The position numbers were made by a program, and so were the translations under genes. A stretch of DNA of 64,000 nucleotides, taken from NCBI GenBank assembly GCA_016200085.1, contig JACQFL010000028.1, positions 62,001 to 126,000 of the forward strand. Direction: 5' to 3'. Shown in pieces: positions 5,686 through 60,114 of the stretch; the first letter of the stretch is position 1; each line of letters starts with the position of its first letter. The DNA comes from Candidatus Rokuibacteriota bacterium (GTDB lineage Bacteria; Methylomirabilota; Methylomirabilia; Rokubacteriales; CSP1-6). Below the pieces are notes generated by a model, which was not told the origin of the DNA, searched no databases, and saw only the letters and a list, made by a program, of their open reading frames with translations.

Positions 5686-5832
5686 GGCGGGGCAGGCTGA
5701 GGGCGGGAGGGCTTCCGCGATCCGACTGACTGTGGTCTCGTAGGCCGTGTCCGCGCGCCGCGTGGCGGGCGCGGCGAGACCATCCCTACCCAACGGATCG
5801 CGGAAGCCCTCCCGCCCTCAGCCCGCCCCGCC
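5686..5832 (+). repeat. Structured inverted-repeat element copy 1: 39-nt arms (5686-5724 / 5794-5832) around 69-nt core (5725-5793)
   Basis: Arms complementary at 38/39 positions by eye; core matches copies 2 and 3. Confidence 0.85.
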
Positions 5833-5977: not shown

Positions 5978-6134
5978 GAACCTCGCGCTCCGCGGGGCCG
6001 GGCCGGGGGGCCGCGATCCGTTCGGTACGGGTCGTCTCGCCGCGCGCGTCACGCGGCGCGCGGACACGACCTACGAGACCACAGTCGGTCGGATCGCGGC
6101 CCCCCCGGCCCGGCCCCGCGGAGAATCGGGGTTC
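5978..6134 (-). repeat. Structured inverted-repeat element copy 2 (core on minus strand): inner arms 5990-6020 / 6090-6121, core 6021-6089
   Basis: Arms complementary with a single 1-nt bulge; core reverse complement ~61/69 identical to copy 1 core. Confidence 0.85.
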
Positions 6135-56534: not shown

Positions 56535-58375
56535 AGCTGACGCTGCCTCTCAGCCCGGCCGCACGCCGCCTCGCGCGGGCGCTCGTGCTGGGGATCGCGA
56601 TGAGCATCGGCGTCACCATCCTCTCGCGCGTGGGCGTGCTCGCGGGCTGGGAGACGCGCGCGGTCGACACGTTTCTCTTCTTCCGCGATCGCCGGCCAGC
56701 GCCGGAGATCGCCCTGGTCACGATCGACGAGGACACCTTCGCGAGCCTGGGCGAGCGCCAGCCCCTGCCCCGGGCCTATCTGGCGGAGCTGGCGGACTTC
56801 CTGCTGAGGAGCGGCGCCCGCGTGGTCGCCTTCGACCTGATCGTGCGGACCCCGACGGAGTCCGCCGCCGACGCCGCGCTCATCCGGGTCTCCCGGCGCG
56901 CCGGCGACCGCCTGGTGTTCGCCGCGGTCGCCCGTCCGGTGCAGGGCGAGGAGCGCTACGAGATGAGCGGCGCATTCTCTCCCGCCCTGCGCGCGCGGCT
57001 GGGCTTCGCGAACACCCCGCTGGGCAGCGACGGCATCATCCGCCGGATGGCCCCCGTCCTGGCGGACGCCCACGGCGGCTTCCTGCCGTCGCTCGCGCTG
57101 GTCACGGTGGCGGCCTGGGATGGAGCACTGCCGGCCCTGGACGCCGCGCTGCGGGCCGGCGGCCACGACACGCTGGCGCTCCCGGTCCGCGGGGACGACG
57201 GCCGCATCACCCGGGCGCCGGTCACGCGGGCGGCGCTCGCCGAGCGGCCCTGGCGCGTGGACTTCGCGGGGCCGCCGGGCACGTTCGTCGCGTTCCCGAG
57301 CCTGCCGCTCGTGCAGATGGCCCGCAGCGGCGTCGAGCCTCCGGCCGACAACCCGTTCCGGGACCGCCTCGTCCTGGTGGGCGCGACCTTCGCCGAGAGC
57401 CGCGATTTCTACCCCACGCCGGTCGGGCTCATGGCGGGCGTCGAGATCCAGGCTCACATGATCAACACGGTGCTGACCCGTCGCCTCACCGCGCCGCCCC
57501 ACTGGGCCGTCAACCTGGCTCTCCTGGCCGTGGTCTGCGTGGTCATCGCCGTGCTGGCGCTCTGGCTCTCGACGCTGTGGCTCACCGTGGCGTCCGCCGG
57601 GATCGTCGGCGGGCTGGCGGTCGCGAGCTACGCGGTGTACGTGCGCGGCGGGTACTGGCTCGACTTCGTCGCCCCGCTGGCGGCGATGCGGGTCTACTTC
57701 CAGGTCTCGAAGCTGGTGGCCCGGCGCCGCCTCCGCGCGGCCTTCGGCCAGTACACGAGCCCCGAGGTGCTCGAGCGCGTGGTCCGCGAGGGCAGCCAGC
57801 TCGGCGGCGAGGTGCGCACGGTCTCCGTGCTGATGTCCGACGTGCGCGGCTTCACCACGCTCTCGGAGGGGCGGCCGCCGGCCGAGGTGTCGGCGATCAT
57901 GAACGAGTACTTCACGGCCATGGTCGATGTCATCATGGGCCAGCAGGGCATGGTGAGCGACTTCATCGGCGACGGCATCCTCGCGATCTTCGGCGCGCCC
58001 CTCGACGACCCCGAGCACGCCTGGCATGCGGTGCAGACCGCGCTCGGCATGCAGGCGGCCACCGCGCGGCTCAACGAGGGCTGGACGGCGGCGGGCCGGC
58101 CCTCGCTGGCGATGGGAGTCGCCGTGAACACGGGCGACGTGTTCGCCGGCAACCTCGGGTCGCCGCGCAAGAAGAAGTACGGCGCGATCGGCGACACCGT
58201 GAACACCACGGCGCGCATGGAGGGCCTGAACCGCGAGCTGGGCACGGGCATCCTGATCTCCGCGGCGACGCTGGCGCTGGTGAAGGACCGCGTGGTGGCC
58301 CGCGACCGCGGCGAGGTCCAGGTCAAGGGCAAGGCGGAAGCAGTCGCGATCTTCGAGCTGGAGGGTCTTCGATGA
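56531..58375 (+). CDS. CHASE2-domain class III adenylate/guanylate cyclase
   Basis: CHASE2 pattern (ALVTIDEDTF...GARVVAFDLIV), 3 TM, cyclase VLMSDVRGFTTLSEG..FIGDGILAIFGAP..YGAIGDTVNTTARMEG; start uncertain (CTG overlap or ATG 56600). Confidence 0.88.
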   Translation: MKLTLPLSPAARRLARALVLGIAMSIGVTILSRVGVLAGWETRAVDTFLFFRDRRPAPEIALVTIDEDTFASLGERQPLPRAYLAELADFLLRSGARVVAFDLIVRTPTESAADAALIRVSRRAGDRLVFAAVARPVQGEERYEMSGAFSPALRARLGFANTPLGSDGIIRRMAPVLADAHGGFLPSLALVTVAAWDGALPALDAALRAGGHDTLALPVRGDDGRITRAPVTRAALAERPWRVDFAGPPGTFVAFPSLPLVQMARSGVEPPADNPFRDRLVLVGATFAESRDFYPTPVGLMAGVEIQAHMINTVLTRRLTAPPHWAVNLALLAVVCVVIAVLALWLSTLWLTVASAGIVGGLAVASYAVYVRGGYWLDFVAPLAAMRVYFQVSKLVARRRLRAAFGQYTSPEVLERVVREGSQLGGEVRTVSVLMSDVRGFTTLSEGRPPAEVSAIMNEYFTAMVDVIMGQQGMVSDFIGDGILAIFGAPLDDPEHAWHAVQTALGMQAATARLNEGWTAAGRPSLAMGVAVNTGDVFAGNLGSPRKKKYGAIGDTVNTTARMEGLNRELGTGILISAATLALVKDRVVARDRGEVQVKGKAEAVAIFELEGLR

Positions 58376-59346
58376 CGGGCTGGCGGTGGAGGACTCGGGC
58401 GGCGGCGATGGCGCTCGCGATCGGGGCCCTGTTGGGATCTCCCGGCGCAGCGGGAGCGCAGGGTGCCGAGACGGCGGGGATGCTCACGGAGATCAAGGTG
58501 GGGCGTGGCCGCGTGGAGATGAAGACGGGCGGCGCCGACTGGCGGCCGGCCACGCCGCTCAGCGCGCTGCGCGCCGGCGATCAGGTGCGCGCCAGCGGCG
58601 ACGCCATCGCGGTGGTCCTGCTCACCGGGGGTCGCGGCACGGTGAAGGTCGACACGGCCGCCTCGCCCTACACGGTGGCGGCGCCATCTGGTGACGGCAA
58701 GGTCGACAAGGCCAAGAGCCTGCTCACGTCCAGCCTCGGCTTCCTGTCGGCGGGCAGCAAGGAGCCGCCGAAGGCGGTGCTGTCCACCCGCGCGGCCACC
58801 CGGCCCCCCGAGGTCCTCACCCCTCGGAACGGACCGGTCCTGCCCGACTCGCTCGTGTTCGAGTGGCAGGGCAGCCAGTTCTCGCGCTACACCGTGCGCA
58901 TCGTCGATCCTTCCGGGGTGGTCCTCGAGCGCAAGGGCGTGGTGGGCGCGCGCTTCCCCTACCCGGCCGACGCGCCCGTGCTCAAGCCCGCCGTGCGCTA
59001 CCGGTTCCAGGTGGAGGCGCTGAACCATCCTGCGTACGAGACGTGGTTCGAGGTCGTCGATCCCGGACGGGCCGCGGCGGTGCGCCAGAGCCTGGAGCAG
59101 CTCGAGGCCTCGCTCGGGCCGGGCGTGTCGCCGAACTCGCTCGCCGCCGTGAGGATCGGGGCGCTCGCCGCCGACGGCTACCTGCACGACGCGCGGCTGC
59201 TCGCCCTGGCCGCGCTCGCGCGCGATCCCGACGAGCCGGCCCTGCACATGCTGCTCGGCAACGTGTACCTCAAGACGGGCCTGCCGCGGCTCGCCGCGGA
59301 GTCACTCGACGAGGCCCAGTTCCTCCTGTCCCGCGGGGGCAAGTAA
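58372..59346 (+). CDS. exported FecR-domain protein
   Basis: ATGA overlap with cyclase stop; signal peptide; FecR-like domain; C-terminal TPR-like helices. Confidence 0.82.
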   Translation: MTGWRWRTRAAAMALAIGALLGSPGAAGAQGAETAGMLTEIKVGRGRVEMKTGGADWRPATPLSALRAGDQVRASGDAIAVVLLTGGRGTVKVDTAASPYTVAAPSGDGKVDKAKSLLTSSLGFLSAGSKEPPKAVLSTRAATRPPEVLTPRNGPVLPDSLVFEWQGSQFSRYTVRIVDPSGVVLERKGVVGARFPYPADAPVLKPAVRYRFQVEALNHPAYETWFEVVDPGRAAAVRQSLEQLEASLGPGVSPNSLAAVRIGALAADGYLHDARLLALAALARDPDEPALHMLLGNVYLKTGLPRLAAESLDEAQFLLSRGGK

Positions 59347-59358
59347 GCGGGCGTCCAC

Positions 59359-59588
59359 GTTGGTGTGCTGAGTCTGAAGTTCGTCGTCACGTCCGACCGA
59401 GGTGGGGCGGGCTGGGGCCGGGGTCGGTTGAGATAAGCCGTGGAGTAGGCGTGGTCTCGCCGAAGACGATCACGATGCGAGGCGCACCGCTCGGTAACGA
59501 CAGTCAGTCGGCTTGTCCAACCGACCCCGGCCCCTGCCCGCCCCACCTCACGCCACGCGATGACGAACGTCGGACTCAGGACACTAAC
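59359..59588 (-). repeat. Structured inverted-repeat element copy 3 (core on minus strand): arms 59359-59440 / 59509-59588, core 59441-59508
   Basis: ~80-nt imperfect complementary arms; core ends match copies 1 and 2 (ACTGACTGT...CGGCGAGACCA..CCTAC). Confidence 0.85.
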
Positions 59589-60114
59589 GGACGGCGGCGG
59601 GCTTCACCTTCCCACGGCTCTTCTCGTAGGCCTCGATGGCCTTCTTGAGGTCGCGGTACTCCTCGCAGGAGAAGAAGCAGAGGGAGTCGAGACGCGTCAG
59701 GTGCTCGCGGGCCTTGGCCGGGTTGTCGAGGGCGAGATAGGCCTCGCCGATGTACTCGTGGGCGCCGCGGTGCTTCGGATCGAGGGCGAGCGCCTTCTCG
59801 TAGAGCGGCAGGGCGCGGGCGGGGTCGCCGTTGCGCCGGATCGCATAGGCGAGCCAGTTGTAGGCGTCCGCGTTGGCGGCGTCCCGCGCCACCACGCCCT
59901 CGAGCAGCGGGATGGCCTGGGCGAAGCTCCCCGCCTTGATCGCCTTCACGCCGGCCCCGTAGTCCGGGTCCTCCGGCTTGCCCGGAGCCGCGCGCCGCGG
60001 CTCGTCCCCACCCCCGCCCGCGGCGTGGGTGGCCGCCGGTATGCTCGCGGCGATCGCCGCGCACGCCAGAACGAGAACGATCCCTCGCCGGAAGCTCATG
60101 ATGTCCTCCCTCAC
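59584..60114 (-). CDS. exported TPR-repeat protein
   Basis: signal peptide; tandem TPR motifs. Confidence 0.8.
   Translation of the reverse strand: MREDIMSFRRGIVLVLACAAIAASIPAATHAAGGGGDEPRRAAPGKPEDPDYGAGVKAIKAGSFAQAIPLLEGVVARDAANADAYNWLAYAIRRNGDPARALPLYEKALALDPKHRGAHEYIGEAYLALDNPAKAREHLTRLDSLCFFSCEEYRDLKKAIEAYEKSRGKVKPAAVR

Follow-up and report, generated by a model that had tools for sequence, protein, structure and literature searches.

The hairpin that lies between two convergent genes near the right end of the window (the whole 64,000-nucleotide stretch of DNA analysed here) is probably a copy of a non-autonomous, MITE-like mobile element with a TA/CTAG target. The genome that contains it (G000) is a Rokubacteria MAG of 3.57 Mb in 57 contigs, about 95% complete and with 72% GC. 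The reading is carried by a dispersed family of copies, by unit boundaries visible in copy comparisons, by an association with CTAG and TAG, and by the presence or absence of a sister family at matching sites of related genomes. The family to which the window copy belongs, family 1, is a short non-coding unit with many dispersed copies and definable ends, as expected of a MITE.

Positions 59359-59588 fold as a single hairpin of -90.4 kcal/mol, against a shuffled mean of -47.1 +/- 3.4 (z = -12.8; 0 of 200 shuffles folded as well), and with a stop codon at each side the hairpin fills the convergent gap, as the sequence-only reading had proposed. Its left end lies 12 nt past the TAA stop (59344-59346) of the left neighbour gene, and at the right it runs into the TAG stop (59584-59586) with which the convergent TPR gene ends. 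The imperfect arms of about 80 nt described earlier are borne out by 80 aligned pairs with 7 mismatches; the inner arms at 59399-59430 and 59518-59549, 32 nt each, are 97% complementary, and the core between them, read on the minus strand, runs CGACTGACTGTCG...CGGCGAGACCACGCCTACTCCACGG. The protein of the right neighbour matches Pfam TPR_16 (E = 2e-16). The left neighbour had been taken for a FecR protein; its protein has no FecR match and no firm family in Pfam, only weak TPR and fn3 matches. Neither end of the window copy carries a T-run, so the combination of hairpin and U-run that marks an intrinsic terminator is absent, in agreement with the earlier view that the element is not simply a terminator. 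Rfam gave no match in the window at the gathering score, and at a loose E-value only generic long microRNA hairpins. Copies 1 and 2, relatives of the window copy with a different core subtype, form an inverted pair in the divergent gap between a Rieske gene (-) and a metallo-beta-lactamase-rhodanese gene (+).

Table 1. Coordinates of the window copy, its neighbours and the two other copies in the window.
Feature	Positions	Strand	Basis or remark
Mobile unit, 222 nt, family-1 A-type hairpin element	59363..59584	-	core in sense on the minus strand; copy comparison
Flanking TA, target dinucleotide	59585..59586	.	with 59584 forms the TAG stop of the TPR gene; sequence
Opposite flanking dinucleotide, now TG, presumed TA originally	59361..59362	.	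inferred from L081 and L084, where CTAG is kept on both sides
Left outer terminal inverted repeat, GTGTGCTGAGTCTGAAG..., imperfect	59363..59398	.	
Left inner arm, about 40 nt, near-perfect pairing	59399..59437	.	
Conserved core, CGACTGACTGT...CCTACTCCACGG	59438..59510	-	core alignment
Right inner arm	59511..59549	.	
Right outer terminal inverted repeat, ...GTCGGACTCAGGACAC	59550..59584	.	
Left neighbour gene, 3' part, TAA stop	58480..59346	+	open reading frame may begin at 57577
Right neighbour gene, TPR protein, TAG stop at element border	59584..60114	-	
Copy 1, B-type, core 5723-5796	5686..5832	+	
Copy 2, B-type, core 6018-6091	5994..6116	-	

With the window copy as the sole query, blastn recovered copy 1 at E = 2e-5, which upholds the kinship claimed before, and four dispersed copies at E <= 2e-47, the best of which is 94% identical over 224 nt within the same genome. 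A covariance model of family 1 (R1) was built from 16 copies; its scores for the three window copies (109.3, 109.0 and 84.0 bits) amount to consistency only, because all three are in the model. In G000 the model gives 58 rows at E <= 0.1, corresponding to about 57 copies since at least one row is the reverse strand of another copy, and it has no match in 59 relatives, 35 of them of the same taxonomic family. The sequence-only reading had suggested a dispersed, mobile-looking family and had named, as the result that would speak against it, an element with the same arms at every orthologous locus and nowhere else in the genome; these counts leave that suggestion standing. The exact core-end pattern occurs 27 times in G000, is absent from 95 other genomes of the phylum, and has no match in viral_contigs or in genome_contigs, from which records of the genome itself may be left out. 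Neither family 1 nor its build, in which a conserved loop sits on arms that keep changing yet match each other, seems to have been described: a literature search found no paper naming such repeats in Rokubacteria, which is not proof of absence.

Several family-1 copies are located at contig ends. At one of these ends (L069, G000:C9:92356-92614) two B-type copies stand in tandem with a 164-nt period, and tandem copies are present at L063 and L077 as well. Two loci, L066 (C3:575) and L101 (C18:67422), comprise two gene 3' ends plus hairpins and are 94% identical, the similarity stopping near the hairpin end as if the hairpin bounded a duplication. Half-element fragments lie a few tens of nucleotides beyond complete copies in the downstream flanks of L095 and L104, and likewise of L064 and L085.

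The boundaries of the unit emerge from comparison with copies at unrelated loci. The window copy resembles both L081 and L079 from 59363 onward, as far as 59591 and 59586, respectively, and identities of 94% and 83% to such copies are confined to the unit. Because similarity stops there, the true ends of the window copy are its outer terminal inverted repeats. The place assigned to the element earlier is therefore kept, with the exact mobile unit corrected to 59363-59584, and the suggestion that the core borders are recognised gives way to movement, in this copy and those closest to it, at the outer terminal inverted repeats beside TA/CTAG. A-type copies end in TA-G(T/G)GTCCTGAG...CTCAGGACAC-TA, ends that can also be written GTGTCCTGAG...CTCAGGACAC. 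Only L081 and L084 have CTAG at both ends, L079 and L086 having it at the stop-side end, and this tetranucleotide is scarce in the genome (0.17 per kb). Of the two TA flanks of the window copy, one now reads TG and the other lies within the TAG stop of the TPR gene. Outer terminal inverted repeats are seen in the window copy and the A-type copies and none is visible in the B-, C- and D-type copies, which have no TA or CTAG on the far side and a TAG at a variable distance (0-48 nt) from the arms.

The family-1 core measures 73-81 nt, starts with CCGACTGACTGT (in one subtype CCGGACCGCGTAGGCTCTCG) and finishes with STACYCMACGG, the four subtypes A, B, C and D differing in the core middle; the earlier description of conserved core ends with a variable centre and variable arms thus holds across the family. 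The core caps a stem of about 40 bp, in which mismatches are rare up to 35 nt from the core, except for 12% at 5-10 nt, and increase past 35-40 nt. About a dozen copies carry a motif like CGCGAGGT just beyond the 3' arm, at a distance of 42-44 nt from the core. In the alignments many stem pairs have changed in both partners, in the B set 19 of the 28 that were predicted. Between different non-A copies the arms have 51-55% identity, where base composition alone predicts about 41%; the two arms within one copy match each other at a median of 95%. The arms may be kept matched by copying of one arm from the other.

Placement relative to genes, as called with a simple codon-usage caller, depends strongly on gene direction. 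Of the single family-1 copies with known neighbours, 14 lie between convergent genes and 2 between divergent ones, and tandem gaps hold 16 in the sense orientation and 3 in antisense; the tandem-gap ratio of 16:3 has a two-sided binomial probability of about 0.004 and becomes 13:1 without the A-type copies. All 8 inverted pairs have a core on the plus strand followed by one on the minus strand, at a spacing of 250-400 nt. Among the 41 genes lying 5'-adjacent to a copy, 27 end in TAG, a stop used by 24% of all genes in G000 and by 22-28% of genes with various downstream gaps; the P values of this excess (6e-7 to 3e-9, depending on the control) are optimistic because the copies are mutually related. 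Family-1 copies are thus located at gene 3' ends, mostly in sense and beside TAG, and the divergent copies 1 and 2 are exceptional. From the presence of the element in both divergent and convergent gaps an indifference to gene orientation might have been expected, and the orientation check proposed with the earlier reading argues the opposite.

When 400 kb of G000 were scanned for long inverted repeats, a second family with a 79-nt core emerged, family 2, which is also present in three other genomes (G031, G013 and G003). The family is widespread in Rokubacteria: its core pattern matches at least 117 stretches of GTDB genomes, and among the 80 of these that were listed, all but one record are labelled Rokubacteria/Rokuibacteriota. 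In G031 and G013 the units are 239-263 nt long, with ends CTAGTGTTCCGTC...GACGGAACACTAG and TA/CTAG flanks; the ends, CTAGTGTYC, are similar to those of family 1. These two genomes, members of one genus, share three family-2 sites with flanks about 93% identical. A site filled in G013 (L223) is empty in G031 (L233); one filled in G031 (L213) is empty in G013 (L250), where it reads CACTGCTAG at the stop; and one filled in G031 (L221) is without the element in G013 (L242). Such filled and empty sites show mobility of family 2, and not directly that of family 1. Stops beside family-2 copies are TAG in 33 of 71 cases, against 176 of 546 in the background. In a further genome (G002) a third family has variable arms and core ends, GACCCGTTCC...CGTGGTC, that match family 2, and 6 of its 8 distinct copies adjoin a TAG stop. 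Its copies at L133 (18932-19129) and L202-L205 have highly variable arms, and in the copies examined the orientation to the adjacent gene 3' end is always the same. Dozens of sites in G031 carry a separate repeat some 95 nt long, CTAGTGCCGTTCCAAC...GTTGGAACGGCACTAG, which directly adjoins family-2 copies in the left flanks of L221 and L213.

The search for a transposase partner found no DDE_3 (PF13358) transposase in G000, about 95% complete, or in G031, and no Y1 (PF01797) transposase in G000. The candidates considered did not hold up as partners. An IS630-type element beside a family-2 copy in G013 (L226, ~1300-2425) has its own terminal repeats, ATGAATCTCGCAGAAT..., and is merely situated at the TA of the family-2 element. 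A 1.4-kb unit in the same genome (L228), considered as an autonomous element, proved to be an IS110-type transposase inserted within a family-2 core, the gene at 1251-2624 matching DEDD_Tnp_IS110 and Transposase_20; in other cases REP palindromes are known targets of IS110 elements (PMC1525189). A second apparent long pair, at L324, arose from one end motif matching by chance, and the stand-alone Y1 transposase of G002 adjoins no hairpin element.

IS630-type elements insert at TA, which is duplicated (PMC2170065), and work by Tenzen cited in that paper reports in its title that TA within CTAG is preferred. The element described here would insert at TA, by preference within CTAG. A C before a TAG stop would create such a landing site, and insertion there would restore the TAG and leave the host gene unharmed, because the first base of the element is G. 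Judging only by ends and target, the element is most likely mobilised in trans by a Tc1/mariner-IS630-type transposase. The B-, C- and D-type copies with their hypervariable arms may descend from the same kind of insertion, the arms of old copies presumably staying matched through a DNA-level process, e.g., one arm serving as template for the other, and selection may have kept a single orientation relative to the gene.

RUP of pneumococcus and the Correia elements are MITEs of the Tc1/mariner-IS630 type. Family 1 resembles such MITEs in being short, gene-less, intergenic and present in many copies, and its A-type copies have terminal inverted repeats and apparently TA flanks with a CTAG preference; presence or absence between relatives, a further trait of MITEs, is observed here for the sister family 2. 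Family 1 differs from them in its CTAGTGTYC ends, for which no partner transposase was found, in carrying a conserved core of some 70 nt atop a 40-bp inner stem, in older copies whose arms are self-complementary and mutually unrelated, and in lying in sense behind the gene. A review covers Correia, RUP and other MITEs (PMC10969869). With REP, BIME and REPIN sequences the family shares its location downstream of genes, its inverted pairs, its character as a small palindrome and its species-restricted copies, whereas its stem is about 40 bp long (5-13 bp in REPs), conservation falls on the loop core instead of the stem ends, no RAYT was found, and young copies have terminal inverted repeats. Integron attC sites are hairpins of conserved structure and variable sequence that lie just past a stop codon and are oriented with the gene. 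Family 1 is similar in all these respects; unlike attC, it forms no cassette arrays at the loci read, and its conserved part is apical, while that of attC is at the outer ends.

An alternative is that these are REP/BIME-like palindromes that a REP-associated tyrosine transposase mobilises in single-stranded form and whose tag is the neighbouring GTAG or CTAG. REPs occur downstream of genes and in pairs, with stems of 5-13 bp and a GTAG or CGTC tag (PMC3733652), so that the downstream placement, the inverted pairs and the lack of a local transposase would all fit, as would the single arrangement shared by the eight inverted pairs and the GTAG found at many adjacent stops. This origin is nevertheless unlikely, given that GTAG REPs have stems of 5-13 bp (Table 1 of PMC3733652) against about 40 bp here, that the base before the adjacent TAG is G in 16 of 27 cases against 56 of 104 in the genome (no excess), that the distance from TAG to arm is not fixed and CTAG occurs as well as GTAG, that G000 has no Y1 transposase, and that A-type and family-2 units have true terminal inverted repeats with TA flanks.

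Slightly less credible still is a structured RNA of gene 3' ends (a terminator, mRNA 3'-end protector or RNase III site) maintained by selection, mobility being its mere means of spread. The sense bias of single tandem-gap copies, the strong covariation of the stem and the long conserved blocks inside the core would speak for it. However, G.T and A.C stem mismatches number 15 and 27 in total, 5 and 13 of them in non-A copies, a comparison that is weak because the counts are small and mutation possibly strand-biased; the inner stem thus shows no sign of G.U tolerance on the sense RNA strand, and the match of the arms reads as a DNA-level property. Single pairs in a 40-bp G+C-rich stem would also be hardly visible to selection on RNA stability, the window copy lacks both a T-run and an Rfam family at the gathering score, and family 1 is absent from all relatives examined. 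That the hairpin is a vertically inherited, locus-specific terminator resembling other copies by chance is highly improbable: it does fill a convergent gap and fold stably, but its 94% identity to a copy at an unrelated locus is confined to the unit, no family member occurs in other genera, and the copy family itself contradicts this origin.

Starting from a mobile element with a TA/CTAG target, it is tempting, if speculative, to suppose that mobile hairpins of Rokubacteria use TAG stops as landing sites and then become fixed 3'-end elements, with the core conserved, the arms repeatedly rewritten one from the other and one orientation kept, at least family 2 and the G002 family, which share core ends, being of the same kind. 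We regard this broader scheme as possible and rather doubtful. If true, a parasitic repeat would spread with little harm by entering stop codons that its insertion restores, and would later settle as a 3'-end element, whose arms, near-random between copies and self-matching within each, would form a natural record of DNA-level arm correction. It would also add a class of repeats to a phylum known mainly from metagenomes and explain some of the contig breaks in its genomes.
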